Shown here: in pieces, positions 3,672 to 55,518 of the stretch
Layout of the letters: each line of letters begins with the position of its first letter
Position numbering within the stretch: position 1 is the stretch's first letter
NCBI GenBank assembly: GCA_022539475.1
Contig: VCMS01000125.1
Location: 1-64,000, forward strand
Source: Gracilaria domingensis
Lineage: Eukaryota > Rhodophyta > Florideophyceae > Gracilariales > Gracilariaceae
Direction: 5' to 3'
Length of the DNA: 64,000 nt
The notes under the pieces: generated by a model
The model's input: the letters and a program-made list of their open reading frames with translations, nothing else
What the model was told of the DNA's origin: nothing
Database searches by the model: none
Made by a program: the position numbers and the translations under genes

Positions 3672-3847
3672 CTCTATGACAGTATGCCGTTGGATTGCTT
3701 GGTAACGAGCAAGAATGAGTACCGGTGCAAGAATATCCACGCGAGTGCGAAGTGCCAAGTACAGCAGAGACCCGATCATCTGCTGGTACAACTGCACATC
3801 CTGAGCCGATTTGTCCTCCTCTCCGCAAGTCCGGAGAAGAATGACTC
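3672..3847 (-). pseudogene. Copia-B pol fragment (end of RT), left of the A1 insertion
   Basis: The minus-strand frame reads LYQQMIGSLLYLALRTR then VDILAPVLILARYQ, the conserved stretch that follows the RT core in copia elements. It is the continuation of the copia-B gag-pol at 10718-14320, which stops at SPMVES. The two pieces are separated only by A1, and 3843-3847 (GACTC) duplicates 10718-10722. The fragment is cut at 3671 by the type-C LTR, so the RNase H part of B1 is absent here. Confidence 0.8.
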
Positions 3848-4637: not shown

Positions 4638-4657
4638 CCCCCCCTCTGTCACTGACT

Positions 4658-15737: not shown

Positions 15738-16946
15738 TATCAGGTTATGGGCCCAGCCCCGCTGACCTCTGCCGTTATCGTTCCCTCTCGCCGCTGATTC
15801 TCGCCGCTCTCCCTCACCGCCGTTCATCCGCTTCGCTGTTTTCCCTTTCGTTCCCTTCTCCGTTGCGTCGGGTGTGTTGACCGTATCGTCGGTCGGTGTT
15901 GACTTTCCAAGTGCTCGTCGGCAAGCGTGAGTCCAATGATAGCTCTAGCCCTTTCGTCGCGGATTTGCCACTTTACCAGATCCTCTTCATCCGTGGGTGC
16001 AGAAGTGGTGAGATGGTTCTTGAGGTCTTTCAGTGCAAGTACATACTGAATCTTCTGCTTCCAAGTATGGAAGTTATCCTCACCCAACTTCTCGATCTTG
16101 AGCCCACTAAACGAGTCCATGATGTAAGAGAGGAACTGCAGCGAACCAGATAATGCGGTGGCAGACAGGCGGCAATAGCAAACGACAGCGGTAAACAACA
16201 ACAGCAAACAACAACAACAAACAACAACAAACAACAATAACAACAAACAACAACAACAGTAAAGATGAATAGTCGGGTGCAAAAGGAACTAAGATTCCTG
16301 GTACCCTAGGGAGTCGGACCCCTGGCCCCCGGAGACTCTCCGGGTAAGAAACGACTTCTGCAGTCTACCTCCTCCTGCGTTCTAGGAGAAGGTGCGTCGC
16401 TCTCTACGGGACTTCCAGAGGATGGTTAATGACCGAAGATATGCCTTCACCAAGTAAAACCCTCTCTGGTCTCTTGCAAGAACTTGCGCGACCCTGAAAC
16501 TGCAGGTACTATGACAAACCGAGGTACGCTTCTAGCAAGCAAACAATGAAGTTCACAAGCGGCCTGATCCTAAAAAGGAGGTCAGCCTACGACACGTCGC
16601 CTCCCCGCACCACCGAAGCAGTACGGATCAAAAGCTCGTTTCAGTTTGCCTTCGCCACAGATCAAGAACCAACACAAAGTCAGGTCAGCAACAATAAAGG
16701 TGGACCACCTCCTGTCCAGTGCAGTACGTCACGGCACCCCGTCCACAAATGCCCCCGCGAAGAATACCAGGTCTTTCGACCGACACCGTTATCTGCCCCT
16801 AAGGACCGGTGGGAAACTCGCAAGACGGAACAAATGCTTTGGTTCAAGCCGCCAGACTAACGTCCCCGATTGCTCGGATCAACCGCTCGTCGCACCGAAA
16901 CTCAAGTGATCACCACACCTGCCGAGCACACACGCAGTGCACGGAC
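15738..16946. mobile_element. Scrambled copia-A remnant (leader, then inverted gag/leader)
   Basis: 15738-15742 (TATCA) is the last five bases of a copia-A LTR. The PBS follows at 15743-15758, then plus-strand leader to about 15907. There the sequence jumps to minus-strand copia-A: Gag residues 1 to about 71 (15908-16120, ATG at 16118-16120), then leader (16121-16946). Two inverted copia-A pieces are thus fused without LTR ends. No intact gene is present. Confidence 0.75.
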
Positions 16947-16995: not shown

Positions 16996-17077
16996 TGTTG
17001 GATGTTGACCCTGTGCTGTCACTGAAAACCAAAAGTGCTGGGGAGCATGGGCTGTTTTGGAGGGTGCCGTTGGAAAA

Positions 17078-17140
17078 GCGCATATGCGCCTCTGAGCAAA
17101 CTCAACGTGAAACGCGCTTTTGATTGGCTACTGCAAATGG
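17078..17140. promoter_or_regulatory. LTR module: 12-bp palindrome plus CCAAT-type box
   Basis: GCGCATATGCGC (17078-17089) is followed about 33 bp later by GATTGGCT (17122-17129) and CTGCAAATG. The same order and similar spacing occur in all copia-A LTRs and in copia-B LTRs (e.g. 38811-38875), which otherwise differ. Probably a U3 protein-binding module. Confidence 0.55.
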
Positions 17141-17666
17141 TCATATGCATTGTGGTTCGTACAAGTGTTGTGGCGCTAATGGGTTGTTTCCAGGGTACAC
17201 GTGTGTAGCTAATACACTGGGCATGCTGTACATGATGCACAGGGTACACACGTATGTACGTGGACATGTAGGACAGCGTGGTGTATCTTGGGCACTATGG
17301 TGAAGAGTCGATGCGGTGTCAAGAGGATTACAGTGTGGTGTTGTTACTGACGTAGGACTTGAAGTGAGTTTGTGGTGAGTTGCTGTTGGTGAGCCTGTAC
17401 GTAACTGTTATGGTGGCGTGTACGGATTACAGTGTGTTGGCACTATGTGAATCTGTGCATGGTCATGGTTATGTGTAGGCACGTAACTTGATGTGCACGG
17501 TTGTGCACTGTTGTGCGTTGTTGTGCTTTGTTGTTGTAAGCTGTCATGATAGTGTGGCAGTGTTACCATGTTATGTTAGAAGATGATTGGTAGTATTGAG
17601 TGTCTCTAGCTAGAGGTTTAGGTATTGCTTGGAGTTGGAGTTGTGCGATGGTTGCGCAAAGTAGTT

Positions 17667-17674
17667 CTATATAA
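17667..17674 (+). promoter_or_regulatory. TATA box of the copia-A LTR
   Basis: CTATATAA lies about 110 bp before the LTR end. The same motif is found at the same place in the other copia-A LTRs, in the position expected for the U3 promoter. The start site itself cannot be read. Confidence 0.5.
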
Positions 17675-17780
17675 GCGGTGACTCGAGCGCCTCCAAGTAA
17701 ATTCCGAGCGAGAGCTGGCGAACTTCCCTTCATTCCCCTATCCTTTCTTCAACCTTCCCTTTCAGCTTCAACCTCTATCA

Positions 17781-17796
17781 GGTTATGGGCCCAGCC
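17781..17796 (+). other. Primer binding site of A2
   Basis: GGTTATGGGCCCAGCC abuts the LTR end and is complementary to the initiator tRNA-Met anticodon arm. Confidence 0.8.
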
Positions 17797-19025
17797 CCGC
17801 TGACCTCTGCCGTTATCGTTCCCTCTCGCCGCTGATTCTCGCCGCTCTCCCTCACCGCCGTTCATCCGCTTCGCTGTTTTTTCTTTCGTTCCCTTCTCCG
17901 TTGCGTCGGGTGTGTTGACCGTATCGTTGGTCGGTGTTGAATTTCTTCTTTCGGTCGTTCGTTCCTCCCTGAGGGCGTTTTGTTGGTGGTGGTTCCACGT
18001 TGACTTTCTATCGTGATTGTGTTTGGGCGCTCGTTGTCGCCCGTGTTGTCGATCGCTATCCGCTTCGTTTGGTCTCCCTCTGTTATTATTGTTGGGATCC
18101 CCACGTCGTCTTTGTGGGTTCTGATCCGAGAGGTTGAGGACCTTGTGTTGTTGAAGTCTGTGCACTTGTGTGTTGTGCTCAGCATTCGTTTCTGTTGAAG
18201 TCCGTGCACTGCGTGTGTGCTCGGCAGGTGTGGTGATCACTTGAGTTTCGGTGCGACGAGCGGTTGATCCGAGCAATCGGGGACGTTAGTCTGGCGGCTT
18301 GAACCAAAGCATTTGTTCCGTCTTGCGAGTTTCCCACCGGTCCTTAGGGGCAGATAACGGTGTCGGTCGAAAGACCTGGTATTCTTCGCGGGGGCATTTG
18401 TGGACGGGGTGCCGTGACGTACTGCACTGGACAGGAGGTGGTCCACCTTTATGTTGCTGACCTGACTTTGTGTTGGGTTCTTGATCTGTGGCGAAGGCAA
18501 ACTGAAACGAGCTTTTGATCCGTACTGCTTCGGTGGTGCGGGGAGGCGACGTGTCGTAGGCTGACCTCCTTTTTAGGATCAGGCCGCTTGTGAACTTCAT
18601 TGTTTGCTTGCTAGAAGCGTACCTCGGTTTGTCATAGTACCTGCAGTTTCAGGGTCGCGCAAGTTCTTGCAAGAGACCAGAGAGGGTTTTACTTGGTGAA
18701 GGCATATCTTCGGTCATGAACCATCCTCTGGAAGTCTCGTAGAGAGCGACGCACCTTCTCCTAGAACGCAGGAGGAGGTAGACTGCAGAAGTCGTTTCTT
18801 ACCCGGAGAGTCTCCGGGGGTCAGGGGTCCGACTCCCTAGGGTACCAGGAATCTTAGTTCCTTTTGCACCCGACTATTCATCTTTACTGTTGTTGTTGTT
18901 TGTTGTTATTGTTGTTTGTTGTTGTTTGTTGTTGTTGTTTGCTGTTGTTGTTTACCGCTGTCGTTTGCTATTGCCGCCTGTCTGCCACCGCATTATCTGG
19001 TTCGCTGCAGTTCCTCTCTTACATC
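17797..19025 (+). other. Leader of A2
   Basis: About 1.2 kb. It carries hairpins CCCGGAGA/TCTCCGGG (18802-18818) and AGGGG...CTCCCT (18823-18838), then a (GTT)n-type tract (18885-18955) just before the gag ATG. The open frame upstream of ATG 19026 (Cys/Leu/Val-rich) is only the translated GTT repeat, not protein. Confidence 0.7.
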
Positions 19026-22000
19026 ATGGACTCGTTTAGTGGGCTCAAGATCGAGAAGTTGGGTGAGGATAACTTCCATACTTGGAAGCAGAAGATTCAG
19101 TATGTACTTGCACTGAAAGACCTCAAGAACCATCTCACCACTTCTGCACCCACGGATGAAGAGGAACTGGTAAAGTGGCAAATCCGCGACGAAAGGGCTA
19201 GAGCTATCATTGGACTCACGCTTGCCGACGAGCACTTGGATCACATTCGAGACATCGAGACTGCTGCTGACGCATGGAAGGCCATTTGCAATGTGTTTCA
19301 ACGTAAGACTCTTCTTAACCGAATCAACGCCAGACGTGCCTTCTACTCTGTCAAGATGCGCGAGGACGAGAAGATGTTGCAATTCATCAATCGTGTTCGG
19401 CACTTGGCCTCCGACCTCAAGAGTATGGATGTCAACGTTGAAGAAGAGGACATTGCTATGGCTGCTCTATGTGGACTTCCGGATCGTTTTGAGCACCTCA
19501 TTGTTGCAATTGACACCACGATCGGAGATCGCGAACTCACTACGGAGTTTGTGAAGAGCCGTTTATTGCAAGAAGAGCAACGTATGAGTGATCGTGCCAA
19601 GGAGGAGTCCGGTGGTGATGCTGCACTCTTGGGACGCCAGTTTCGTAGGAAGTCATTGAAGTCGGGGGTGTGTTACTATTGTGGCATAAAGGGTCATATC
19701 CAAAAGAACTGTTTCAAAAAGCAACGTGATGGGGCTAACAAGGATCAGATCGATGCTGCTCACCCAAGTGTACATACCGCGCTCAACGATGAGCAAGGTA
19801 CGGGCGGCAGCGATTCTGACTTTGTATGCCTCATTGCGAATGGTGCCGACAAGGCCACTAACAGTGACTGGATTGTTGACTCTGGAGCTACTGCACACAT
19901 GACTTATGATGACTCAATGTTCCAAACGTACGAGACAAAGGTGTCATCGGGTGTGAGTATCGGCAATGATTCCAAGTTGCAGTCTGTTGGTCACGGAAGT
20001 GTGGAGCTCGATCTGACAGTTGAAGGGTCCAGACGTAAGTGCAAGTTGAAACAGGTGGTACACGTGCCCAACTTACGGTACCACTTGCTGTCTGTGTCAC
20101 AGATTTGTGATCTGGGCTGCACGGTAGTGTTTGACAAAGAAAAGATATGTGTGTACAAGGGGTCAAAAGTGGTTGCCGTTGGGCGACGCGTCAAAGACCT
20201 GTACTACCTTTGCACTGCTGCAGATCAGTTCACGGACACGGACAGTGCGCTTGTGTCAGACTTGTCTCTTTGGCATGCTCGAATGGCTCATGTGAATGTG
20301 GAAGGCATCAAGCAGATGGCTCGAAACGGTGTTGTGTCAGGTCTGAATGTGGATGTGGCTCAGAAGCTGGATGTGTGTGGCTCTTGTGTAGTGGGCAAAG
20401 CAACCCGTGCTCCGACTCCCAAGCAAGGGGGGGAACGAGCTGAACACGTACTGGACCTGGTACACTCTGATATATCGGGTCCAGTGAACGTGAAGTCCTT
20501 GGGAGGCTCGCACTACTTTGTCACATTCATCGATGACCACAGCCGCTACTGCTTCTTGTACATGCTCAAGACGAAGGATGAGGTGTTCCGGATGTTCATC
20601 AAGTGGCTCAGGTTTGTGGAGAACCAGATGGGCAGGAAAGTGTTAACCATCACCGCTCGCAAGAGTGTGTTGCGTGCATTGCGCACTGACAATGGTGGTG
20701 AGTACTTGTCCAATCGGTTCTCCGAAAAGCTTGAGCAGTACCGTATTGAGCATCAGCGAACTGTGCCTTACAATCCACAGCAGAACGGGCTTGCCGAGAG
20801 GTTCAACCGCACACTCATGGACTTGGTCAGGTCAATGTTGCATCACAAGAATGTGCCAAAAAGCTTTTGGGCTGAGGCTCTGAATGTTTCTGTGTATGTG
20901 CGCAACAGAGTGACCTGCAAAGCGCTCCCGAGTGACGTGACTCCGTTTGAGCTGTGGCATGGACAGAAGCCTGATCTGAGCAATCTGCGTGTGTTTGGTA
21001 GCCGTTGCTGGTACAAGGTGGTTGATCACAAGTTGAAGAAGCTGGAAGAGCGCGCAGTGGAAGCCATCTTCATTGGGTACACTTCAGGCTCCCACGGGTA
21101 CAAGTTGTGGGACAGCCAGAAGAAGAAGGTGATTGTGTCACGAGATGTGAGGTTTGACGAGCGCTCTGCAACTGAAAGTGACGAGCACTCTGAACACGAG
21201 GACTATGCGGATATCGACTTGGTTGACAAGTCGGGAGCTGCTGAAGCCCCAACCTCCGACACATCCGCCGATCATTCTGAAGATGATCCTTCTGCACCAG
21301 CTTCTCACGAGAATACCACGAATGCCAGTACGGATGATGACACCACACCAGTTCCACAAGATGAGCCGGAAGTGACAGAGACGCAGCCCCTTCGTAGATC
21401 CACACGTCAGAGAAAGACGCCATCCTCGTGGTGGCGTGGTGCCAGTGCTTTCCTTACAGCCAGTGATGATGATACTCCTTCGTCGTACGGTGACGCAGTG
21501 TCACGTCCTGATTCCGAAGCTTGGAAGAAGGCGATGAAGAGTGAGTACGAGTCATTGATGGAGCAGGACACATGGGATCTAGTGCCAAGGCCAGCAGACA
21601 GCAACGTGATTTCGTCCAAGTGGGTGTATGTACAGAAGTATGAGGCTTCGTCATCTGGTGAACCGACAGTGCGTTACAAGGCTCGTGTGGTTGCAAGAGG
21701 CTTCCTGCAGATCGAGGGTGTGGACTTCTCAGAGACGTATGCACCTGTGGTGAAGTTCACATCCATCAGAACGATCCTGTCAGTGACTGCCGTACGAGAC
21801 TTCCACTTGCACCAGATGGATGTGAAGACTGCCTTTCTGAACGGTGACCTTGACGAGACAGTGTACATGGAGCAGCCAATGGGATTCACACAGCAGGGAA
21901 AGGAGGACTTGGTGTGCCGACTGAAGAAAGCGATCTATGGGCTTAGACAAGCACCAAGACAGTGGCACGCCAAGATATACGCCTTCCTTGTTGGTGATAT

Positions 22001-23063
22001 GCACCTCAAGCCGAATGACGCAGACGAGTGTGTCTACACCGGGATCATACTAGGTTTCTTGGTTATCATTGCTCTGTATGTTGACGACTTGCTGATTGCG
22101 AGTCCGAGCATGAAAACCGTGGAACGTGTGAAGGCAGAGCTGTCAAGTCGTTTCCGCATGAAGGACCTCAAAGAAGCTCGCATGGTTCTTGGATTTGAAA
22201 TCCATCCAGACAGAACCACGCGAGAGCTGTACTTGACTCAGTCAGCGTACACGAACAAGGTCCTGGAACGATTTGGCATGCAGCTGTCGAAACCCGTTGA
22301 CACTCCTATGGAGTGCGGTGTGGACTTGTCTGTTGAGGAGGAAGTGCTCACGCATGTACCATATCGTCAGGCGATTGGCTGCCTCATGTATCTGTCTGTG
22401 GGAACTCGTCCAGACATCTCATATGCTGTGGCTAAGCTGGCCAAGTATGTTGAGAAGCCGGGAAACACTCACTGGAAGGCGGTCAAGCGTGTTCTTCGCT
22501 ACCTCAATGGCACTACCACGTTCGGGTTGACGTATGGCTCCAGCACCGATTTGCAACTGCACGGCTATGTGGACTCTGACTGGGCTGGCGATGTTGCCAA
22601 CCGCAATTCCACTAGTGGATACTTGTTCATGATGTGCGGTGGTGCTGTGTCGTGGTCGTCTCGTCAACAGGAGGTAGTTGCTTTGTCGAGTGCAGAGGCT
22701 GAGTACGTGAGCTTGTGCTCTGGCACCAAGGAGGCGATCTGGCTTAGGCGACTTTGGAACGGCATTGGCAGTGTGATTGGCATGGAAGCAGAGGGGTCTG
22801 TAAAGCTGCTGGTTGAACCAACTCCCATGTATGTTGACAACCAGGGCAGCATTGACCTTGCTCGAAATGGAGTGGTGAACAGGCGAACCAAGCATATTGA
22901 AATTCGGTTCCACTTTACTCGAGAGGCTCTGCAGGCCAAGTCGATAGTGCTGTTCTACTGCCCGACGGATTCCATGGTTGCCGACATGCTGAATAAGCCG
23001 CTTGCGCGAGTGAAGCACGAGAGGTTCCGCGAAGCCGGTGGTGTGATTCACATAGAAGTTTAA
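19026..23063 (+). CDS. Intact gag-pol polyprotein of copia-A A2 (1345 aa)
   Basis: A single uninterrupted frame for the whole replication machinery of a Ty1/copia element. The start is at MDSFSGLK, conserved in every copia-A copy. Domain order: Gag (1-~200) with CCHC knuckle C216-C219-H224-C229; aspartic protease D285-S286-G287; GAG-pre-integrase around HARMAH (417-422); integrase with D482, D555 and E591; an acidic Ser/Thr/Asp-rich linker (710-800); RT with AFLNGDLDE (935-943) and YVDD (1018-1021); RNase H with DSDWAGD and SSAEAEY towards the C-terminus. Length and order are normal for copia. No catalytic residue appears lost, so this copy could be active or supply proteins to defective relatives. 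No separate Gag stop is visible. Confidence 0.95.
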   Translation: MDSFSGLKIEKLGEDNFHTWKQKIQYVLALKDLKNHLTTSAPTDEEELVKWQIRDERARAIIGLTLADEHLDHIRDIETAADAWKAICNVFQRKTLLNRINARRAFYSVKMREDEKMLQFINRVRHLASDLKSMDVNVEEEDIAMAALCGLPDRFEHLIVAIDTTIGDRELTTEFVKSRLLQEEQRMSDRAKEESGGDAALLGRQFRRKSLKSGVCYYCGIKGHIQKNCFKKQRDGANKDQIDAAHPSVHTALNDEQGTGGSDSDFVCLIANGADKATNSDWIVDSGATAHMTYDDSMFQTYETKVSSGVSIGNDSKLQSVGHGSVELDLTVEGSRRKCKLKQVVHVPNLRYHLLSVSQICDLGCTVVFDKEKICVYKGSKVVAVGRRVKDLYYLCTAADQFTDTDSALVSDLSLWHARMAHVNVEGIKQMARNGVVSGLNVDVAQKLDVCGSCVVGKATRAPTPKQGGERAEHVLDLVHSDISGPVNVKSLGGSHYFVTFIDDHSRYCFLYMLKTKDEVFRMFIKWLRFVENQMGRKVLTITARKSVLRALRTDNGGEYLSNRFSEKLEQYRIEHQRTVPYNPQQNGLAERFNRTLMDLVRSMLHHKNVPKSFWAEALNVSVYVRNRVTCKALPSDVTPFELWHGQKPDLSNLRVFGSRCWYKVVDHKLKKLEERAVEAIFIGYTSGSHGYKLWDSQKKKVIVSRDVRFDERSATESDEHSEHEDYADIDLVDKSGAAEAPTSDTSADHSEDDPSAPASHENTTNASTDDDTTPVPQDEPEVTETQPLRRSTRQRKTPSSWWRGASAFLTASDDDTPSSYGDAVSRPDSEAWKKAMKSEYESLMEQDTWDLVPRPADSNVISSKWVYVQKYEASSSGEPTVRYKARVVARGFLQIEGVDFSETYAPVVKFTSIRTILSVTAVRDFHLHQMDVKTAFLNGDLDETVYMEQPMGFTQQGKEDLVCRLKKAIYGLRQAPRQWHAKIYAFLVGDMHLKPNDADECVYTGIILGFLVIIALYVDDLLIASPSMKTVERVKAELSSRFRMKDLKEARMVLGFEIHPDRTTRELYLTQSAYTNKVLERFGMQLSKPVDTPMECGVDLSVEEEVLTHVPYRQAIGCLMYLSVGTRPDISYAVAKLAKYVEKPGNTHWKAVKRVLRYLNGTTTFGLTYGSSTDLQLHGYVDSDWAGDVANRNSTSGYLFMMCGGAVSWSSRQQEVVALSSAEAEYVSLCSGTKEAIWLRRLWNGIGSVIGMEAEGSVKLLVEPTPMYVDNQGSIDLARNGVVNRRTKHIEIRFHFTREALQAKSIVLFYCPTDSMVADMLNKPLARVKHERFREAGGVIHIEV

Positions 23064-23073
23064 AGTCAGTGAC

Positions 23074-23083
23074 AGAGGGGGGG
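23074..23083 (+). other. Polypurine tract of A2
   Basis: AGAGGGGGGG lies 10 bp after the gag-pol stop and directly before TGTTGG of the 3' LTR; the expected plus-strand primer site. Confidence 0.8.
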
Positions 23084-23868
23084 TGTTGGATGTTGACCCT
23101 GTGCTGCCACTGAAAACCAAAAGTGCTGGGGAGCATGGGCTGTTTTGGAGGGTGCCGTTGGAAAAGCGCATATGCGCCTCTGCGCAAACTCAACGTGAAA
23201 CGGGCTTCTGATTGGCTACTGCAAATGGTCATATGCATTGTGGTTCGTACAAGTGTTGTGGCGCTAATGGGTTGTTTCGGGGGTACACGTGTGTAGCTAA
23301 TACACTGGGCATGCTGTACATGATGCACAGGGTACACACGTATGTACGTGGACATGTAGGACAGCTTGATGTGACTTTGGCACTATGGTGAAGAGTAGAT
23401 GCGCTGTCAAGAGGTTTACACTGTGGTATTGTTGATACGTAGGACTTGGAGTGAATTTGTGGTGACGTGTTAGTTGGTGAGCTTGTACGTAACTGTTATG
23501 GTGGCGTGTACGGATTACAGTGTGTTGGCACTATGTGAATCTGTGCATGGTCATGGTTATGTGTAGGCACGTAACTTGATGTGCACGGTTGTGCACTGTT
23601 GTGCGTTGTTGTGCTTTGTTGTTGTAAGCTGTCATGATAGTGTGGCAGTGTTACCATGTTATGTTAGAAGATGATTGGTAGTATTGAGTGTCTCTAGCTA
23701 GTGGTTTAGGTACTGCTTGGAGTTGGAGTTGTGCGATGGTTGCGCAAAGTAGTTCTATATAAGCGGTGACTCGAGCGCCTCCAAGTAAATTCCGAGCGAG
23801 AGCTGGCGAACTTCCCTTCATTCCCCTATCCTTTCTTCAACCTTCCCTTTCAGCTTCAACCTCTATCA
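23084..23868 (+). repeat. 3' LTR of A2 (785 bp)
   Basis: TGTTGGATGTTG...CTCTATCA. It is followed immediately by the truncated LTR of A3 rather than by a duplicate of the left flank. Confidence 0.85.
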
Positions 23869-25253
23869 TTAGGTATTGCTTGGAGTTGGAGGTTTGCGAT
23901 GGTTGCGCAAAGTAGTTCTATATAGGCGGTGACTAGAGGACCTCCAAGTAAAATCCGAGCCAGAGCTGGCGAACTTCCCTTCATTCCCCCATCCTTTCTC
24001 TCAACCTTCCCTTTCCAGCTATAACCTCCATCAGGTTATGGGCCCAGCCCCGCTGACCTCTGCCGTTATCGTTCGTCTATCGCCGCTCTCCCTCACCGCC
24101 GTTCACCCGCTTCGCTGTTTTCCTTTCTCGTTCTCTTCGTCGTTGCGTCGGGTGTGTTGACCGTGTTGTTGGTTGGTGTTGATCTTCTCCTTTCGGTCTT
24201 GCGTTCCTCCCTGAGGGCGTTGTGGTGGTAGTGGTTCGCGGTTGATTCTGTATCGTTATTGTGTTTGGGCGCTCGTTGTTGCCCGTGTTGTCGATCGCTA
24301 TCCGTTTCGTTTGGTCTCCCTCTGTCGTTATTGTTGGGATCCCCGCGTCGTGTTGCGGGTTCTGATCCGAGAGGTTGAGGACCATTTGTTGTTGAAGTCT
24401 GTGCGCTGCCTGCGTGCTCAGCAGTTGTTGAAGTCTGTGCACTGTGTGTGCTCAGCGTTTGGTGTTGTCATCTGAGGTCCAGCGACAAGCGGTTGATCCG
24501 AGCAATCGGGGACGTTAGTCTGGCTGCTTGAACCAAAGCGGACGTGCTGTCTAGCGGGCTCCCACCGGTCCTTCGGGGCGGACAACGGTGTCGGTCGGAA
24601 GACCTGCTAGTACCGCGAGTTCTGAAGTGGACGGGGTGCCGTGACGCACTGTTGGACTTGGGTGGCTCACCTTTGTTGTTGTTGACCTGACTTTGTGTCG
24701 GGTTCTTGATCTGTGGTGAAGGCAAACCGAAACGAGCTTTTGATCCGTGCAACCTTGGTTGAGCGGGGAGGCGACGTACCGAAGGCTGACCTCCTTTTCA
24801 GGATCAGGCCGCGTGTGGGCATTATTGTCTGCTCGTTAGGAGCGTACCTTGGTTTGTCATAGTAGCTGCAGTTTCGAGGTCGCGCAAGTTCTTGCAAGAG
24901 GCCAGATTGCGTTAAGTGGTGAAGACATATCTTTGGTCATTAACCATCCTTTGGACGCCTCGTAGAGAGCAACGCGCCTTCTCCTGGAGCGCAGGAGGAG
25001 GTAGACTGCAGAAGTCGTTTGCTACCCGGAGGGTCTCCGGGGGTGAGGGGTCCGATCCCCTAGGGTACTGGGAATTTAGTTCCTGCCAGTGGTCCCGACT
25101 ATTGAAGTTTTTGTTGTTGTTGTTGTTGTTGTTTGCCGTTGTTGTTGTTTGCAGTTGTTGTTGTTTGCTGCTGTTGTTTGCTGTCGTTGTTTGCCATTGC
25201 TGTCTACCTGCCACCGCCGTATTTGATTTGCTCCCCTGTTCCCTTCTTACAAC
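23869..25253 (+). mobile_element. A3: truncated 5' LTR, PBS and leader
   Basis: 23869-24033 is only the last 165 bp of a copia-A LTR (TATATAGG in place of the TATA box, ending CTCCATCA). The PBS is at 24034-24049 and the copia-A leader runs to the ATG. The leader repeats the CCCGGAGG/CTCCGGG stem near 25025 and a GTT-rich tract near 25110-25180. The LTR start was lost at the A2 junction. Confidence 0.8.
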
Positions 25254-31428: not shown

Positions 31429-32684
31429 GTTGTCAGAAGGAAACAGGGGAGCAAATCAAATACGGCGGTGGCGGGTAGACAGCAACGGCAAACAACGACA
31501 GCAAACAACGACAGCAAACAACAGCAGTAAACAACAGCAGCAAACAACAGCAGCAGACAACAGCAGCAAACAACAACAACTGCAAACAACAACAACGGCA
31601 AACAACAGCAGCAAACAACAATAACAGCAAACAACAACAACGGCAAACAACAACAACAAAAACTTCAATAGTCGGGACCAGTGGCAGGAACTAAATTCCC
31701 AGTACCCTAGGGGATCGGACCCCTCACCCCCGGAGACCCTCCGGGTAGGAAACGACTTCTGCAGTCTACCTCCTCCTGCGTTCCAGGAGAAGGCGCGTTG
31801 CTCTCTACGAGGCGTCCAAAGGATGGTTAATGACCAAAGATATGTCTTCACCACTTAACGCAATCTGGCCTCTTGCAAGAACTTGCGCGACCTCGAAACT
31901 GCAGCTACTATGACAAACCAAGGTACGCTCCTAACGAGCAGACAATAATGCCCACACGCGGCCTGATCCTGAAAAGGAGGTCAGCCTTCGGTACGTCGCC
32001 TCCCCGCTCAACCGAGGTTGCACGGATCAAAAGCTCGTTTCGGTTTGCCTTCACCAAAGATCAAGAACCCGACACAAAGTCAGGTCAACAACAACAAAGG
32101 TGAGCCACCCAAGTCCAACAGTGCGTCACGGCACCCCGTCCACTTCAGAACTCGCGGTACTACCAGGTCTTCCGACCGACACCGTTATCCGCCCCGAAGG
32201 ACCGGTGGGAGCCCGCTAGACAGCACGTCCGCTTTGGTTCAAGCCGCCAGACTAACGTCCCCGATTGCTCGAATCAACCGCTCGTCGCTGGACCTCAGAT
32301 GACAAACCCAAACGCTGAGCACACACAGTGCACAGACTTCAGCAACAAATGGTCCTCAACCTCTCGGATCAGAACCCGCAACACGAAGCGGGGATCCCAA
32401 CAATAACGACAGAGGGAGACCAAACGAAACGGATAGCGATCGACAACACGGGCAACAACGAGCGCCCAAACACAATAACGATACAGAATCAACCGCGAAC
32501 CACTACCACCACAACGCCCTCAGGGAGGAACGCAAGACCGAAAGGAGAAGATCAACACCAACCAAAAACACGGTCAACACACCCGACGCAACGACGAAAG
32601 GAGAGAGAAAGGAAAACAGCGAAGCGGGTGAACGGCGGTGAAGGAGAGCGGCGATAGACGAACGATAACGGCAGAGGTCAGCGG
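31429..32684 (-). other. Leader of A4
   Basis: Contains an A/C/G trinucleotide-rich tract (31480-31670; GTT/GCT repeats on minus) and the paired motif with AGGGG/CCCCT (31709-31724) and CCCGGAG/CTCCGGG (about 31728-31745). Here the second stem is fully complementary where other copies have a G.U pair. No gene is supported. Confidence 0.7.
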
Positions 32685-33488
32685 GGCTGGGCCCATAACC
32701 TGATGGAGCTTATAGCTGGAAAGGGAAGGTTGAGAGAAAGGATGGGGGGAATGAAAGGAAGTTCGCCAGCTCTGGCTCGGAATTTACTTGGAGGTGCTCG
32801 AGTCACCGCTTATATAGAACTACTTTGCGCAACCATCGCAAACCTCCAACTCCAAGCAATACCTAAACCACTAGCTAGAGACACTCAATACTACCAATCA
32901 TCTTCTCACATAACATGGTAACACTCTCATACTATCATGGCAGCTTACAACAACAAAGCACATCAACGCACAACAGTGCACAACAGTGCACAACAAGTTA
33001 CGTGCCTACACATAACCATCACCATGCACACATTCACATAGTGCCAACACACTGTAATCCATACACCACACCATAACAGTTACGTACAAGCTCACCAACA
33101 ACACTTCACCACAAACTCACTCCAAGTCCTACGTCACCAACAACACCACACTGTAATCCTCTTGACACCGCATCAACTCTTCACCATAGTGCCCAAGATG
33201 CACCAAGCTGTCCTACATGTCCACGTACATACGTGTGTACCCTGTGCATCATGTACAGTATGCCCAGTGTACTAGCTACACACGTGTACCCCGGAAACAA
33301 CCCATTAGCGCCACAACATCTGTACGAACCACAATGCATATGACCATTTGCAGTAGCCAATCAGAAGCCTGTTTCACGTTGAGTTTGCGCAGAGGCGCAT
33401 ATGCGCTTTTCCAACGACACCCTCCAAAACAGCCCACGCTCTCCAGCACTTTTGGTTTTCAGTGACAGCACAGGGTCAACATCCAACA

Positions 33489-33646
33489 CCAGGAATCTTA
33501 GTTCCTTATGTACCCGATCGCTTGCAGTTTGTTGTTGTTATGCTCGCGTCTCCGGGGGTCAGGGGTCCGACTCCCTAGGGTACCAGGAATCTTAGTTCCT
33601 TATGCACCCGATCGCTTGCAGTTTGTTGTTGTTATGCTCGCTACAG
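33489..33646 (+). repeat. Tandem duplication of leader sequence at the start of D (right copy)
   Basis: A 58-bp segment (33489-33546) recurs at 33583-33640, with one base change noticed (TGTACCC versus TGCACCC), separated by 36 bp of leader. The left D copy has it once. It directly follows the end of the A4 5' LTR. Confidence 0.75.
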
Positions 33647-34428
33647 TTCAGGAGGTGGAGTGTTTCCTGCCTGAGACTGTGTGTGTGAGATTCGTTTATG
33701 ACACTTCCTGGGTGTTTGTTGTTGAACATGTCTGAGCTCTTCTTTGTATCAACTTTGGAAAGTTGCGATGTTACTTGTCCTCTGTTATCGTGACTTCCTT
33801 ACGCAGGCTCAGAAGGTTGCCGTTATGTATGCCCGGGATGTGTGCTGTGCTCTTCGCTTTACTTATGTTGTACCGGAAGGTTGCTATTTGTTTGCATGTC
33901 CGGTGTGTATGGAAGAGCTGTTTGACTCAAAATGTTGAGTGTTTCATGCCTGAGTGTGTTATTGATCACTTGTGATGTGTGTTTTGCTCTCCATGTTGTT
34001 CTCATGTTACCAGAAGGTTGTTACATGTATGCATGTCTGGGTTATGGAAGAGCTGTTCGATTCAAGAGGTTGAGTGCTTCATGCCTGAGTGTGTAGAACA
34101 TCATTTTGTATGGACGGGGCCTGGAAGGTTGTCATTTTGCAAGTCCAGGATGCCTGTGTTGCAATTCTCTTTGTGTGTTATTCACGGAAGGTCGCCGTGA
34201 TTTTGCATGTCCGCTGTTTGAAGAGATTTGTTGAGCTTGAATGTTGCTCTCTTTTGCATGTCCAGCTGTTACGAAGGTGATGTTGAACTGGAAGGTTGCT
34301 ACTTGTTGCATGTCCGGTGTTCAGAAAATCGGTCTTGAACCAGAAAGTTGCGTCTGTTTGCATGTCTGGTTGAAGTACTCTGATTAATGGTGCTCCGAGA
34401 GGTTGTTACGTGTTACATGCTCGGAGCA
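33647..34428 (+). repeat. Array of about 12 variable-stem hairpins (element D, right copy)
   Basis: Inverted copy of the array at 427-1345, here in sense orientation. Units include ACCGGA/TCCGGT (33872-33904), CCTGGA/TCCAGG (34120-34149), AACCAGA/TCTGGTT (34338-34371) and TGCTCCGAG/CTCGGAGCA (34391-34428). All have the loop motif AGGTTG...GCATG (one with AAGTTG). Some units have lost pairing relative to the left copy, e.g. ACTCAAA/CCTGAGT near 33925. One higher-order unit fewer is present than on the left. A further degenerate unit with TCTAGA arms lies near 34442-34480. Open frames across it are not conserved as protein. Confidence 0.7.
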
Positions 34429-34909
34429 ACATTTGTTTTCGGTGTCTAGAATGTGGTCACTTGTGGACGTCTAGATCCCTTTTGTGAAGGACTCTGAGGT
34501 GCATTTTGGTTCCGAGAGAAGTTCAAAGCCAGTGAGAGAGGGAGGGTGTCAGAGTAACATCCTCAGACTTAGGCTCTCACTGTCTGTTGTTGATGTCTGT
34601 TTGAACCGGAAGCCGTTGCCTTCGTTGCCATACGAAGGATGAGTAGGAAGTTCAGAGTGTGTGACAAAAGGAGGGTGTTTCCAGAACATGCGAATCGTAC
34701 AGAACAGAACTATGATCTTGGTATACTGGTAGAACGGTACACCCGTGGACTTGGACACACACAAACTGCACTTGATGTCTGGTTGTCGCCGTTTGACATT
34801 GTCAGATTTCAGTGCGGTACCGTTGTGTTCCTCACCACCCAACGTGTTACTTTGCATGTACTTGGCCAGCAGCAGCGCTGGTTGCTTGAAGTCAGTAACA
34901 GAGGGAGGG
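34429..34909 (+). other. Region with three successive polypurine-tract-like motifs
   Basis: GAGAGAGGGAGGG+TGTC (about 34537-34552), AAAAGGAGGG+TGTT (about 34666-34680) and AGAGGGAGGG+TGTT (34900-34911). Each is preceded by a GAAGT(TC)A-type string as at the copia-A 3' end. Only the last is followed by a recognisable LTR. No gene is supported. Confidence 0.5.
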
Positions 34910-35904
34910 TGTTGGCAGTCATGCTGTCACTGACATCAAGCAGCTGAGATGTGTGAAGTCTAGAATGGTACCTTGCTATGTGAAAGCGAGATTGATGTTG
35001 TTCTGTTTGTTATACTATGGTGGTCGTGTGGTATACGCAGTATGGGTTGAACGTTTTTGGCTACACTGGAACGCTATCGTTCAGCTCTGATGACCACAAG
35101 GTACAACGATGACAGGTTGTACAGTGGTCATGAAGTACAGGGTTGAAGGCTATGTATATGCACACAAGGTACAGGTAGCAGCACTGTCAGTCTTGTGAAG
35201 TTTACACCATGTTTGAGTTGTGCTACATGCAAATGTGTGTGTATGGATGAATGGAACATGTTGCAGCTAAGAGACTGACGTCATGTGGTTTACAGGTACT
35301 TGTTGATGATGTGGGACTTGGGTACCTGGCACGTACACATTACGGTGTCGTGTAGGGATTACAGCGCGCAAGCAACACGTGAAGTGTGGTGTCATGTTCC
35401 GTAAGCATGTCTGGTCATAATGGTGAGGTGTTGCATTGTGTGTATGCATGGTCGCGTTGCTATGGTCTGCTGTCATATTGTTGACTGCATTGATGTGTGG
35501 TGCTTGTGGTGTGCTGCAGAAATGTGTCGGTACACTCTCAGGGACGTGCATGGCTGCTACATTGGTGTGCATTGTTGTGCATTGTTGTGCACTGCTGTGC
35601 AGTGGTGTATGGAATTGTTGTGCATTGTTGTGCACTGTTGTGCGTTGTTGTCCATTGCTGTTGTAAGCGGTTTGGCACTGTTACCATGTTATGTCCGTTG
35701 ATGATTGGTAGTATTGAGTGTCTCTGGTTAGTGGGTTGCATGTTGGGCAGAATTGGGGTCGCATGATGGTGTAGCGAGGAAGTGCTATATAAGTTGTGAC
35801 TCAAGCACCTCCAAGTAAATTCCGAGCCAGAGCTGGCGAACTTCCCTTGCATCCCCCCATCCTTCCTCATGTCAACTTTCCGATCCCAGCTATAACCTCT
35901 AACA
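34910..35904 (+). repeat. Type-C LTR (995 bp), 3' LTR of element D right copy
   Basis: TGTTGGCAGTCATG...CTCTAACA. The last about 170 bp (CTATATAAG box, CTCCAAGTAAATTCCGAGCC) are homologous to copia-A LTRs. The 5' 410 bp are unrelated and match 3262-3671. A run of TTGTGCATTG-type repeats lies at 35570-35660. The GCGCATATGCGC module of the other LTRs is absent. It is joined at 35905 to copia-B coding sequence. Confidence 0.65.
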
Positions 35905-46852: not shown

Positions 46853-47826
46853 TGTGGGGCAAACTCGGAAGAGTGAAACCCACCAGACTGTCCGAAGGTC
46901 CGCTCTCGTGAGAGATGGCAGACCAGTGACAGAGCCCTCTGTACCACCGTAACTCGGTTGTGAGGCCGAAGTGGCAACTGGCTATACCTACAGAGGTGAT
47001 AGGCCACGTGGTGAGGAAACGATGAGAAACTCCAGAGATGGGGTCGTATCGGCAACGATGAAACACGACCAACGACAGGTGTAGTCCCGAGAGGGAAAGC
47101 AACAGAAAACAACAACCAAACAACACCCACACGCGACGGGTAGGGCCTCCTCGGCACTGTGCCCGGAGCGGGGCGAGATCCTCCAACGGTAATGCACGGG
47201 TTTCCGTAAACACGGCAAAACTCTATACAGAGTCGGATCACTTCGTAATCTAGTCCTATACCTCCTCGGTACGACCCTCAGGTCCCGACATCAACGACAG
47301 ATGTTCCTCAAAGGTACCGAGAGGGTAGGACCACCGTAACCAGACGTGGCTATACTCGCGAGAGTGATAACCCACGTAGGCGGTTGGCGCCAGAGCCTCA
47401 CTCGTGTAGAGTCCACTCAGGAGAGCGCTACTCGACAAAGAGTTCACTTAGAAGTGCTCGGGTTGACTTTACAAAGGTGCTCGCGACGACGAGGTCGAGC
47501 TCACCTAAGTAGGTCTAAACTAACTATGTACACGTGGTGCACACCCGCAGGGGTCCGTACACGTGGCTAGCCCAGTGTCAGGCACCTCAGGTGCACTACC
47601 TATTGTCCCGTAATATGCACACACACGGTGATGTAGTACACGCGTCCACCTAGCGGTATTGGCCAGCAATGGCAACCCTGATTACAGGTAACTGTGGGAA
47701 AGCCATTCCAAAAGTAACCGCCAAAATTGGGTCCAACTCATAACTCTTCGAGTGCATCCTCGTATCACTCCCCTGAGTATATGAGGCGCATCATCCTGAT
47801 AACCACGCAAAATGCGTTGCTCTACA
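46853..47826 (-). repeat. 3' LTR of gypsy-1 (974 bp)
   Basis: Plus-strand TGTGGGGCAAAC...TTGCTCTACA. It is the same as 57822-58795 except for about five substitutions between about 46950 and 47100. Short frames inside are not supported as genes. Confidence 0.92.
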
Positions 47827-47839
47827 TCTCCCCCTCCTT
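47827..47839 (-). other. Polypurine tract of gypsy-1
   Basis: The minus-strand AAGGAGGGGGAGA immediately precedes the 3' LTR start (TGTAGAGC). Confidence 0.8.
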
Positions 47840-48016
47840 AGAGCCGAGAACGACTTCGAGGCTGAAGTTTTGTGCGAAACGCAAGTACGTAAATACGTCA
47901 CAATCAAGAGCGGTACCAACTCCTCGGTTTCTATACCTCGCAAGCGCGAAACACACTCAAGCGAACAGAGTATTCAAGTATCCGAACTCGATCACAGTAC
48001 ATCATCTGTCATTCCG

Positions 48017-49759
48017 ATGAACCCGAATCAGTTTCCTCATCACCCGACGGGTCAGGCGAGCGCGTCGAACTACCCTCAGCCGGGTTCTGCGACGGCTCCA
48101 CTGCCTCAGCCTCAACCGATGGTCCCGGTGAACGTTCCGTTATGGAATTCAGCGCAAGCGATGCCGCTGATGGCGAACCAAGCTGGTTGGATATCGAGGG
48201 AATCTCTCGCAGTACGCGATCCACTCCGTGATGGGTTTGCGTTCAGCCGTGCACCGTGGTTTCATCCGGTAGCTGTTAACGATGACACTCTCCTGGAGTC
48301 GTATGCCGAAAACGGCTTCCTACCGGGCGGTCTGCCGTTAGCGGTAGTGCAATCCCCAGAATGGAAAGTTCGTATAGCGATCGACCCGATGCTCCTCCGG
48401 TACGATACCCGCGAGGGTGAGAACCTGAACACCGCGCGCGCGGAACACGCGAAGTTGGCGTACAAGAGACTCAGTCGAGTGCACCTCGAGCACCTGGTTC
48501 CACCGTCATATGGGTTCGATACTCCGTTCTACCGTACTTTCGGTAAAGTCCGATATGGAGACAACTTGGCGACGTTCGACCATGCGCGGTACGCTGGCGA
48601 TGGCCCGACCACATCGAGTTTGATGTTGTGCTGGAATCGGCCCATACTCCGAGCGGAGTTCCGTTATCTTCGCAAGAACGCTTCCCAGGGTGGGTTCGTC
48701 AACCGCATTCGGTTTGAGCGGAAAGCTCGTTCCCGTCATGGGTATCTGATTCCGTACCCGAATATCGAGACCGAGAGGTACAGACCGCAGGCCTTTGTTG
48801 GACGGTTCCCTCCTCTACCAGATTGGTGGCGTGATGTGGAGGTACCCAAAGGGTGTTTTGCAGAACTGCCTCCGTGCTTGAGTTACAGCGGCTCCCGATT
48901 GATCAGCGATCCGCGTTCAGGATGGTGGGGTCTGGTAGCCGGCGAGTGGGCGGCACGCGTAGCAGCGTTTCTCCTCTGGGAGGCTTACGACAACTACCGT
49001 GTTTGGTATATTCCGCCGATGCTTCGCAGCATTATCCGCTCGCTGGATTTGCACACTCCCTTGGGGTCCGAAGAGAACGTGGATGAGATCCATTACATCT
49101 TGGATGTTATCGATGGAGTCGATTGGGAAACGGTGCCCCGTTCGCAGCGTGGGAAAGGTCCTCGTCGTCACTACGACCGCTCACCCGGTAGGAGGCATCC
49201 CACCGCAGGAGATTTCGTGTATTACGACCCATGGGAGGGTACGATGACGACTAGCGCATATGCCGAGTGGGCAGCGAACCAGCCACGGTCGATTCCAGAC
49301 AGTCACCCCGTTGGGTTCATGTTCAGTGACAACTGGGTCGCCCCAGTAGATCTGGATGATCCGAACATGGATACCGGTGGAGAGGCGGCGGGAGCACTCG
49401 TCGAGATGGACCAGGAGTTGGTGAACGACCTACCGGCGGCGAATCAGGTGTTGCACGCCAGCGGCGGGGTACCCCAGGCTCCTGTGGGTTGGAATGTTCC
49501 GACTCAAGCGAGTGTTCCGGTGGTGGGTCCGGCCCCTGTAGCGGCTACCGTTCCTTCGGTCCTTCCGGCCCCGACAGCTCCGGTCGCTCCGGGAGATTCT
49601 CCGGCGAACATCGCGATGTTGCGCGCCAGTCTCCAGAACGCTGGAATTATCGTGCCCGATCATCTCACCACTATGGCAGGGATACTGGCTTACGCCGTTC
49701 CGCACCCTTCGCAGGGTCCCTCCGGTAGCGGCGGTGCCGGTCCCTCATCGGGGGTGTAA
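48017..49759 (+). CDS. Antisense ORF of gypsy-1 (580 aa, unknown function)
   Basis: I do not recognise the family. It is a full-length open frame on the strand opposite gag-pol, between the chromodomain ORF and the 3' LTR. I chose ATG 48017 (MNPNQF); the frame is open to 47870 but without an upstream ATG. Visible: a Pro/Gln-rich N-terminus (1-50); a central, probably folded part (60-400) with many W/Y/R residues, including PDWWRD (268-273), LPPCLSYSGS (284-293), EWAARVAAFLLW (310-321) and WYIPP (330-334); an acidic stretch; and a Pro/Ala/Val-rich then Gly/Ser-rich tail. No zinc finger, signal peptide or clear membrane segment is seen. A decayed relative lies at 61968-64000. It could be an RNA- or capsid-related accessory protein; this is inference only. 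Confidence 0.7.
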   Translation: MNPNQFPHHPTGQASASNYPQPGSATAPLPQPQPMVPVNVPLWNSAQAMPLMANQAGWISRESLAVRDPLRDGFAFSRAPWFHPVAVNDDTLLESYAENGFLPGGLPLAVVQSPEWKVRIAIDPMLLRYDTREGENLNTARAEHAKLAYKRLSRVHLEHLVPPSYGFDTPFYRTFGKVRYGDNLATFDHARYAGDGPTTSSLMLCWNRPILRAEFRYLRKNASQGGFVNRIRFERKARSRHGYLIPYPNIETERYRPQAFVGRFPPLPDWWRDVEVPKGCFAELPPCLSYSGSRLISDPRSGWWGLVAGEWAARVAAFLLWEAYDNYRVWYIPPMLRSIIRSLDLHTPLGSEENVDEIHYILDVIDGVDWETVPRSQRGKGPRRHYDRSPGRRHPTAGDFVYYDPWEGTMTTSAYAEWAANQPRSIPDSHPVGFMFSDNWVAPVDLDDPNMDTGGEAAGALVEMDQELVNDLPAANQVLHASGGVPQAPVGWNVPTQASVPVVGPAPVAATVPSVLPAPTAPVAPGDSPANIAMLRASLQNAGIIVPDHLTTMAGILAYAVPHPSQGPSGSGGAGPSSGV

Positions 49760-51064: not shown

Positions 51065-54000
51065 TTAACACCGGTCGGTAACATTGAGCTGATCTACCGC
51101 TTGCGGCTCTGCGTTCTCCGGGAAGCCCGGGTCTACAGATACTGTCTTCTCCGCTCTGCGGGTGGTGACCTCACTCAGTTGTGGTGTTCCCGACGGGGTT
51201 ACGTTATCCACAGCGGTGTGTACCCCCTGGGTGGGTCGTGTCGTTTCCAGCGCATTGCTCAACGAACTCGACGGAGTATCACCACGAGGTACAGCGCCTC
51301 GGCGCACCACAACGCTATCGGTAGGGACCGCGAGATTGGTGGCGGTACCTTGCGACAGAGTGTGACCGTGCGACGCCGGTGTAACGGGTTCCGTACTTTC
51401 CTCCCCCTCCTTAGGCGGTGGCACGGGAGCCACGACGTCCGGTGGGGGGTCAACTCTAGTTGAGTTTTCCTCTTCGTCTCCCGCAACGGGTTGTGCTACC
51501 CGCGTGGGTGATTCTGACTTGGGTAGATCCGATAAGCCGCGATCAGGGCGGAGAGTCGCAGGGCGCGAAGATACGACCTGTTCGTCCCCTGTAGCTTCAC
51601 CCAGTTGGGTGTTAACGTGAACGTAGGGTGGTGGTGCCAGCGCGACACGGTCTAACGATATCCGTTCGTGGAGATTATTGATATCCAATACTACGGTATC
51701 GTCCGTGACGGAAATAACCTTGTAGGGTCCTTCCGCGATAGGCGAGAGCTTGTGGCGGCGTTCCTTCTCCGGATTATAGTATTCTTTGCGGAGAAATACC
51801 ATATCGTCTGGTTTGACCTTTGGTAATGGGGTCTTAACCTTCGCATCGAAGTTGCGCTTATAAGCGGCCTGCGCCTTATCCATCGCTGTGCGAGCGACCG
51901 GTACCATTTTGGTTAACCAATCCTTCCAAGCGTTCCTGTATAACCCAACAGACGGGTACGTAGAAATCGTTTCTTGAGCCTCGATTGCAACCGGTGGCGG
52001 TACTCTTGACAATACCAACTCAAAAGGTGCTAGCTTCGTTACCCGGTGGACTTGGGTGTTGTACGCATACGTAATAGCGTCCGTATACAAATCCCAATCC
52101 TTAGGATGATCTGCCACATAAGATCTTAATGCATTCAGCATGGTACGGTTAAATCGTTCTACCTGACCATTTGTTTGGGGGTGGTAGGTGGTCGTAAATA
52201 AATTCTTGACACTCAAGATCCGACAGACGTCCTGGAAAAACTTCGACGTGAACTGTGAACCGTTATCTGATAATAGATGAACCGGTGGACCGTACACAAA
52301 GACACAGTGGGTGACAAAAGCTTGTGCAACCACGGTGGCCGTAATCCGTTTCAGCGGGACTGTCCGTACCAACTTAGAGAACCGATCGGTGATAACCAGA
52401 AGGTATCGATTACCTCTTGCGGTTCTGATCAATTCACCTAAGATATCGATAGCGATAAACTCCAAAGGAGACCGTGCTGGGAACAGCGTTAACTTCTTCG
52501 AGTACTTACAAAGTTTCACGTTATTCTTAGCGCACTCGGTGCAAGAGCGTCGTACTGCGTAGCAGTCTAATGCCATTGACGGCCAGTAAAAATCCCTACG
52601 CAGGGTCAAGTATAGTTTTCGACCTCCTGGGTGGGCTCCTACCTTCACATAGTGTGTCATTACCAACACACGGTTTTGCAGCGAGTATGGGACCACAATT
52701 TGGGTATACGCTTCGACCAACCTAACCAGGTACCCCTGATCGTTAACCTGAAAAGGTATACGATCTCCTCCATTGAGACGAGCGCGAATTCGCGTACAAA
52801 ACTCATCCGTTTGCTGTTCTCGGATCATCTCCTCGGGAGTGATGGGTACAAAAGATCCAGTCAAGGGATCCAACTTCTCAGAAGTGAGCAGGATGTCGTC
52901 ACAGATGTCATCCGACAAGGATTCGACCCAACCTGCTTGTTCTTCCACCATAAAGCATGGTATGTCCAGATCGTCAACTGGTGCCGCTTCTGCATCTGTC
53001 CCCAAGCGGGAGAGTGCATCTGCCTGCAGATTCAACGTTCCTTTTTTGTACGTAACTGTGAAATCGAACTCCGATAACCTCAAGCGCCAACGCATCAAGC
53101 GTCCTGATGGTTCCGAGATTTCCATGAGCCATCGGAGAGATGAGTGGTCCGTATGTACCGTAAAATGGTTGCCCATAAGATATGGCCTCAGTGTAGTTAG
53201 AGCCCATACAACGGCTAAGCACTCTTTCTCCGAAACTGAGTAGTTACGTTCGTGTACGTTCAAGGATCGCGACCAGTATCCAATTGGATGTCTCACGCCG
53301 TCTTCCGTGACCTGAAACAGGGCGCAACCAACCTGGTGTGCACTGGCGTCAGTGTCTACTTCGAATGGAAGTCCTAGCTTAGGCAAAGCCAAGATTGGCG
53401 GTGACGTTACTGCGTCAATTAATGCCGAAAAGGCAGACGCTTCCGCGTCGCCTAGGGGTTCCAGTTGAACTGGTTGACCTTTTCTCAAAAGGTGGTTAAG
53501 GGGGGTCGCAATATCTGCGAAGTTCGGGACAAAACGCCGATATACATTACAAAGACCCAGAAAACTGCGGAGTTCCGTTTGTGTCGTAGGGTGTTTCGCT
53601 TCCTTCAGCGACTTCACGCGAACTGCGTCAACTGAGAGCTGTCCAGGTCGAATGATATGCCCTAGGTATTTGACAGAATCTGTGAAGAACTCGCACTTCT
53701 TGAGTTTCAGCGTAATGCCCGCGTCCCTGAGGACTCTCATGACGTCCCGGACGTGTGTTAAGTGGTCATCAAGGTTATCGGAGAACACGATGATATCGTC
53801 AAGATACACCAAGCAGGTCTTCCACTTGAATCGAGCCAAGAGGATATCGATAGCACGTTGAAACGTAGCCGGTGCGTTGGTTAATCCGAACGGCATTCGC
53901 TTAAACCGGTACAAACCTTGGTGGCACACAAAAGCAGTTTTGTCCTTATCCTTTTCACGGATCGGAACTTGCCAGTATCCCCAATTGGCATCCAAGGCGG

Positions 54001-55474: not shown

Positions 55475-55518
55475 CTTCGGCTCGGAAGGCGCCCCTCCCG
55501 TAGGGGAAACTCCCGAAG

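Follow-up and report, generated by a model that had tools for sequence, protein, structure and literature searches.

Element D is a non-coding derivative of a Copia-type retrotransposon, not a coding Copia, in which a tandem array of short hairpins occupies the place of gag-pol; the stems of the hairpins differ between units yet pair, an internal loop of constant sequence lies within each unit, and the element has moved recently without coding capacity. The best overall explanation is that the array acts as a multivalent protein-binding RNA for packaging or export, a tentative reading that we place a little below an even chance. Two copies of D, inverted relative to each other, lie in the window (the whole stretch of red algal DNA that was analysed, 64,000 nucleotides; Table 1), and the initial annotation, which had reported about 12 and about 14 units for their arrays, is borne out by 12 units on the plus strand and 14 in the inverted copy. 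The host is a Gracilaria-like red alga, judging from a full-length rbcL gene, located on a different contig of the assembly, that shares 98% identity with Gracilaria species.

Table 1. Positions in the window of the parts of element D and of the coding Copia proposed as its partner
Feature	Position	Strand	Basis or remark
Hairpin array, 12 units	33645-34427	+	Covariance model matches (E 1.5e-13 to 1e-4) and unit parse; more decayed copy
Unit starts of the + array	33645, 33806, 33870, 33924, 34007, 34059, 34118, 34181, 34233, 34285, 34337, 34392	+	
Example unit, stem ACCGGA/TCCGGT, internal loop AGGT/TG, inner stem TGC/GCA	33870-33906	+	Top model score, 52.4 bits; counterpart unit 1086-1122 folded
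D leader remnant	33489-33611	+	5' LTR and most of leader missing where a minus-strand Copia LTR (ends 33488) abuts
3' non-coding tail of D	34455-34909	+	Extra polypurine-tract-like stretches near 34542 and 34671; LTR-adjacent one near 34905
3' LTR of D	34910-35904	+	About 991-995 bp; L028 form TGTTGG...TAACA
3' tail of second D copy	2-399	-	Cut by window start
Hairpin array, 14 units, inverted second copy	428-1347	-	Covariance model matches and permutation test; better preserved
Leader of second D copy, common to autonomous Copia leaders	1381-2478	-	97% to L028 leader
5' LTR of second D copy	2479-3671	-	Hybrid: D-type 3259-3671 (413 bp) and Copia-type about 2485-3261 (about 777 bp)
Coding Copia, proposed protein source	16996-23868	+	LTRs 16996-17780 and 23084-23868; stop-to-stop gag-pol frame 18858-23063

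A covariance model built from 23 distinct units of the D family gives 27 matches in the window at E up to 5, i.e. the 12 units of the plus-strand array, the 14 of the inverted copy and one elsewhere (E=0.48), so that no hairpin unit is found in the window beyond the two arrays; since the model units come from the same family, the matching of the arrays is partly by construction. Read directly in both arrays, the unit consists of a stem, A-G-G-U-U-G, 6-11 nt, C-A-U-G and the complementary stem. The stems quoted in the initial annotation are present, with the exception that ACTCAGG/CCTGAGT is whole in the inverted copy only, its plus-strand counterpart at 33932 reading ACTCAAA and being partly unpaired. 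Pair-breaking changes of this type (e.g. ACTCAAA as against the ACTCAGG of most copies) occur in several units of the plus-strand array, where 70 of 84 outer-stem cells are paired compared with 82 of 91 in the inverted copy (among units preselected as having 4 or more of 6 pairs). One unit, at 33814 on the plus strand and 1186 on the minus strand, is a poor hairpin, with two A.C mismatches in all 39 of 39 compared copies.

The constant part of the hairpin is the AGGU/UG internal loop, rather than the whole AGGTTG...GCATG loop between the outer arms as had been proposed, because an inner 3-bp helix within that loop itself covaries: its third pair occurs as C-G, A-U, U-A and U-G, and its first changes from U-A to G-C in unit 33653. 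Each unit thus comprises a variable stem of 6-7 bp, the constant and asymmetric AGGU/UG internal loop, a 3-bp inner stem (UGN/NCA) and an apical loop. Without a given structure, RNAalifold folds the unit alignment into an outer helix of 7 bp and an inner helix of 3 bp, separated by a 4-nt/2-nt internal loop and capped by an apical loop, and 10 of the 14 units, extracted and folded singly as the initial annotation had advised, adopt this architecture. A reading of GCAUG as an RBFOX-like motif was rejected, since its first base varies together with its partner. That AGGU may serve as a 5'-splice-site decoy was also considered.

The claim that the stems differ and nevertheless pair holds up under permutation. 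In the inverted copy, the 14 units found by the model are paired at 89 of 98 outer-stem cells, compared with a mean of 68.4 and a maximum of 87 over 100,000 permutations of the 3' arms (p about 1e-5); with one unit per distinct stem (n=11) the values are 69 of 77 and a permutation mean of 53.1 (p=2e-5). Choosing units by the loop only gives 15 candidates, one of them a false leader match, with 92 of 105 cells paired (permutations mean 70.5, maximum 89), and a cruder thinning of the loop-chosen candidates to 8 units gives p=0.008. Across 20 arrays with at least 10 preselected units p ranges from 5e-5 to 1.5e-4, a few permutations tying the observed value in some. Pairing no better than in shuffled units, the outcome named in advance as telling against a structure, is not what is seen: over all 70 distinct units of 25 arrays, with decayed ones kept, pairs form in 405 of 490 outer cells (shuffled arms mean 319, maximum 345, n=1000) and in 199 of 210 inner-helix cells.

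The 23-unit set, chosen from 35 sequences each seen at least twice, shows that the changes are paired ones. In it 93.5% of 230 cells pair, compared with 73.3% in shuffles of the 3' letters, 0 of 500 of which reach the observed value, and sliding the partners by 1-3 columns reduces pairing to 23-46%. Two-sided change is seen for 9 of 10 pairs (6.6 in shuffles, as high in 2 of 500), double-change cells number 55 vs 19.6, and the covariation score is 0.664 vs 0.271 when shuffled; further pair types are no higher than in shuffles of these units (20 vs 18.6, 133 of 500). Tests of single column pairs mostly fall short of significance. In a G-test with APC on 14 units, for which 9 of the 10 proposed pairs were scorable (the innermost being excluded), 8 proposed pairs fall within the top 15 of 325 column pairs and 1 lies above the shuffle threshold; with 55 distinct column sets, 2 of the 5 pairs above threshold are proposed ones, shared ancestry adding false pairs.

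That the array stands in the place of gag-pol, as first claimed, is clear from its position between a leader common to coding Copia elements and the 3' end. The 4.5-kb copy L028 comprises an LTR (2158-3148), leader (3149-4249), array (4250-5229), tail (5230-5681) and second LTR (5682-6672). Its leader and adjoining LTR end are 79-90% identical to window Copia copies, and the leader likeness between D and Copia ends approximately 15 nt inside the stop-to-stop gag-pol frame of the partner (counted from the frame start, not the gag start codon). The 2.5-kb internal domain has no coding frame; the longest stop-free stretch in array and tail is 84 codons, and gag, integrase and RT in Copia order are accordingly absent from this region.

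Copia-type LTR features are otherwise retained, including two direct LTRs (TG...CA) with a 5-bp target duplication in L028, and a primer site and polypurine tract in common with coding Copia. The 15-nt primer site, GGTTATGGGCCCAGC, adjoins the 5' LTR and is identical in six D copies and in Copia 16996-23868. Its complement lies in the anticodon arm of the tRNA-Met(cat) of the host (a tRNA that ARAGORN predicts at 4 of the 5 places matching the pattern), and the site fits a tRNA-Met half-molecule as the D primer. A purine tract precedes the 3' LTR in both D and Copia 16996-23868. The tail of D contains extra polypurine-tract-like stretches, GGAGGGTGT (window 34520-34960; L028:5290-5690), one of which in L028 matches the 3' end of an autonomous Copia over 33 nt (88%); these look as if former 3' ends had been retained inside D. 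Interiors of D carry either the 991-bp LTR or a mostly partner-like LTR, the array persisting with both types. In four further copies (L026, L027, L029 and L040) about 165-245 bp of D-type sequence lies beside a Copia-type LTR. Beside the point where the D leader meets the minus-strand Copia LTR, 60 bp of that leader occur twice (33488-33547 and 33582-33641, 98%).

The LTRs of L028 are identical over 991 bp (TGTTGG...TAACA) and flanked by a GTAAC target duplication. Seven LTR pairs tested have 0-1 substitutions and 0-3 gap columns each, and 5-bp target duplications are present in three of them (GTAAC in L028, TGAAC in L037 and CAGGA in L032); with the LTR ends used, a target duplication was not seen in the other four. 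The coding Copia of Table 1 has Pfam gag, integrase and RVT_2 matches, and all 40 of the 185 candidate places of its family that were scored have 98-100% identity. The best named relative of the Copia protein is from Chondrus crispus (44%). From the near-identical LTR pairs, the lack of coding capacity and the numerous and uniform partner family we infer that D uses proteins of other elements and is probably mobilised in trans by an autonomous partner. The Copia copy itself is without a hairpin unit (best model match E=0.47). A leader hairpin, CCCGGA/UCCGGG (window 18800-18820; L028:4176-4196), is common to Copia and D and resembles the outer stems of the array; as a possible seed of the array (E 0.47 and 0.13) it is a weak lead.

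The search of the genome for other arrays with the same loop, likewise recommended at the outset, was productive. In all 42 arrays were read, i.e. 40 that were fetched and the two of the window. When an older copy was used as query, the arrays found were 84-90% alike (40 of 61 candidates scored), which suggests that one D family is seen in the genome. Array lengths (n=42) cluster near 980 (23 arrays), 845 (6), 1030 (3) and 1115 nt (2), with eight shorter or cut; most length steps fit a 135-bp repeat with two units, and unit number is thus not tightly held. Two D elements in tandem with a common LTR occur in L030 (G000:C316:1-10000), which suggests recombination between D copies. The core of the last unit is in the D form at 44 of 53 places among the matches listed (reversed control 8), and two other unit patterns have 278 vs 17 and 128 vs 3 genome matches relative to reversed controls. 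One unit pattern gave no matches in the bacterial/archaeal or in the viral contig collections.

The initial annotation had ascribed the paired stems either to a selected structure or to a process copying one arm onto the other. The paired change around a constant motif stands, and the tests bearing on selection fall short of significance. Wobbles are present in sense orientation, as had been noted for one unit, with U.G pairs in units 1339, 925, 850 and 562; their excess over A.C is not significant (9 G.U vs 3 A.C in outer and inner stems of 14 units, 209:183 in wrongly paired arms, p=0.11). A strand polarity of 13:3 (p=0.027) was withdrawn, 4 of its 13 wobbles being due to the false leader match. 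With the loss of significance on this recount, the estimated likelihood of sense transcription of the array and of its selection as RNA was lowered from quite likely to somewhat likely, at which it still stands.

Evidence for selection between D copies is borderline. Across the 42 arrays, variants common to at least 3 copies number 30 over 364 structured sites vs 56 over 456 spacer sites (p=0.067), single-copy variants being alike in the two (107 structured vs 127 spacer, p=0.64). Pairing is kept by 10 of 21 shared stem variants vs 19 of 74 single-copy ones (p=0.065), after setting aside 9 variants seen twice (4 of which keep pairing) and 9 pairs unpaired in the majority; shared one-sided stem changes comprise 8 between Watson-Crick and G.U vs 6 to A.C. 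Since D copies are presumably mostly neutral once inserted, weak signals of this type are to be expected. In unit 985 one pair is seen as G-C, G.U and A-U across copies, as stepwise change would give, albeit that the 135-bp repeats are possibly misaligned in places. In unit 1186 most copies have C-G at one pair where three older copies (L041, L042, L044) have U-A, an observation that rests on the alignment of the 135-bp repeat.

These results bear most directly on the proposal that the pairing is a by-product or structure of DNA, the array being a palindromic tandem repeat whose arms were copied by snap-back synthesis, template switching or conversion, without RNA function. The array is indeed tandemly repeated and changes copy number in steps near 135 bp, strand polarity falls short of significance, and between-copy constraint is weak. 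Furthermore, the sense strand does not stand out by folding energy: mean z values for units are -1.97 in sense and -2.32 in antisense, and whole-array values favour antisense (sense -2.3 and -0.7 for the two arrays, antisense of the inverted copy -7.2). By contrast, arm copying would not yield the sense wobbles, nor, as aligned, the G.U state between G-C and A-U, and it leaves unexplained that AGGU/UG stays constant and the 3-bp inner helix covaries amid varying outer stems. On balance the evidence leans towards sense RNA rather than DNA arm copying, which we consider unlikely, though it is the strongest of the alternatives.

If the array is selected as a sense RNA, the following mechanism can be envisaged. 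D would have kept the leader of its partner, the tRNA-Met half-molecule primer site, the polypurine tract and the LTR ends, with the place of gag-pol taken by a tandem array of about 12-14 hairpins. Its RNA, transcribed from the 5' LTR, would fold into a string of hairpins, the stems of which would vary with compensation because pairing alone matters; a protein would read the AGGU/UG loop, and the dozen copies would raise avidity. Candidate readers, by analogy, are an export receptor, as for the constitutive transport element, or the Gag of the partner, as suggested by BARE2. That the hairpins are putative protein-binding sites, their multivalence raising packaging by partner Gag or nuclear export, is possible rather than probable. 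As the tested partner Copia copy is without the hairpin, nuclear export is slightly favoured over Gag packaging, this being a mild argument for a host factor. More ambitiously, the AGGU/UG hairpin may be an undescribed RNA recognition module, and D a Copia parasite that has swapped its coding region for an array of such modules, with multivalent RNA binding as its contribution; this stronger version is doubtful.

It may be instead that the RNA structure is selected as a shield from ribosomes, decay or host silencing, or for length or compactness, with no specific protein involved, as would suit an element without coding capacity, with many redundant hairpins and with a unit number that differs between copies. 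The constancy of AGGU/UG among variable stems, however, points to recognition of the loop and not to structure alone, and we regard a shield as improbable. Capture of part of a non-coding RNA gene of the host, such that any function belongs to the host RNA, has a precedent in Cassandra (5S RNA, in the available part of PMC7215508), and in the window no match to the array better than E=0.56 is found in 4000-33400 and 37100-64000. Against it, the unit patterns show no excess over reversed controls outside known D arrays (5 and 2 places for the two patterns, among the matches listed), and the outside place examined, L047, which was picked because it contains the core, has a model score of 18.8 bits (E=3.4e-5 over 601 bases), i.e. 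an E of approximately 4 when scaled to the genome. Rfam gives no match to the 64-kb window at gathering score and none to positions 1-1400 at E up to 5, and host capture is very unlikely. Least probable is that each hairpin is an undescribed small catalytic RNA, comparable to the hammerheads of retrozymes, or a small-RNA precursor. The recurrence of a compact, conserved internal loop within an LTR element that is non-autonomous would suit either, but the lack of Rfam matches even at the relaxed threshold stands against it and 10-bp two-helix hairpins are short for processing into small RNAs.

Multivalent protein binding, the preferred reading, can be set beside several known systems. The Xist A-repeat, in which tandem short hairpin units and spacers act as a multivalent protein platform, resembles D in having tandem short hairpins with spacers; it belongs, unlike D, to a mammalian chromatin RNA. 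D is LARD-like, in that it shows the LARD features examined and adds a covarying hairpin array. Classic LARDs exceed 4 kb in size, and the 2.5-kb internal domain of D (in L028) is shorter. LARDs, e.g. Sukkula, are described in the available part of PMC7215508 as LTR elements with a non-coding core domain of well-conserved RNA secondary structure and an assumed dependence on autonomous elements, and D likewise is an LTR element with a long non-coding internal domain kept as a family in the 42 arrays read. Its structure, by contrast, repeats one hairpin in tandem with stems that covary, an arrangement that does not appear in that part of the source; D also comes from a red alga and has a Copia leader kept up to the gag-pol frame.

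TRIMs and Cassandra are also non-coding LTR elements dependent on others, conserved RNA structures being ascribed to TRIMs as to LARDs, and Cassandra having a 5S-like RNA sequence (available part of PMC7215508). D lacks the short LTRs and near absence of an internal domain that characterise TRIMs (LTR 991 bp and internal domain 2.5 kb in L028), and, compared with both, its structured part is internal and repeated. BARE2, as presented in the available part of PMC3735527, is a Copia element without Gag, the RNA of which is packaged in particles and has conserved dimerisation and packaging signals; the part after gag may still be translated, whereas D has no coding region. Retrozymes, according to the portion of their literature available, resemble D in being non-autonomous LTR elements that contain a small functional RNA motif. 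They differ in that the motif is a hammerhead within the LTRs, of which the Rfam searches above found no sign, while the hairpin of D is internal and without an Rfam match. The constitutive transport element of simple retroviruses is a hairpin that has two internal loops and acts in cis to recruit an export receptor (available part of PMC7551171). It is one long hairpin with two loops vs an array of internal loops in D. NXF1/TAP binding and export of unspliced RNA by the D array would be a working analogy only. No sign of such a hairpin array was found in the titles and abstract openings of the open-licence literature searched, an absence that is not proof of novelty.

Non-coding LTR elements are well known, and the role of their internal domains is mostly unclear. 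The internal domain of D resolves into countable hairpins with one constant internal loop and covarying stems, i.e. a specific and testable ligand, and the design of the array makes the choice of Copia-type RNAs for packaging or export directly testable. If a protein does bind the array, it would amount to a multivalent RNA tag of natural origin, similar in design to engineered arrays of hairpins, and D would be a parasite of a parasite that competes by RNA structure alone.

Other features of the window concern its coding elements. A 660-aa open frame at 47777-49759 (plus strand) has no Pfam match at E up to 0.001. Near the gag-pol frame starts of several Copia copies lie GTT/AAC-rich tandem repeats of 13-16 bp (8762-8832, 16193-16258, 18888-18973, 25107-25194 and 31479-31660). 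In this Copia-rich region an LTR retrotransposon of another type is also present, with a 1536-aa frame at 51065-55675 (minus strand) containing RVT_1, RNase H and integrase.
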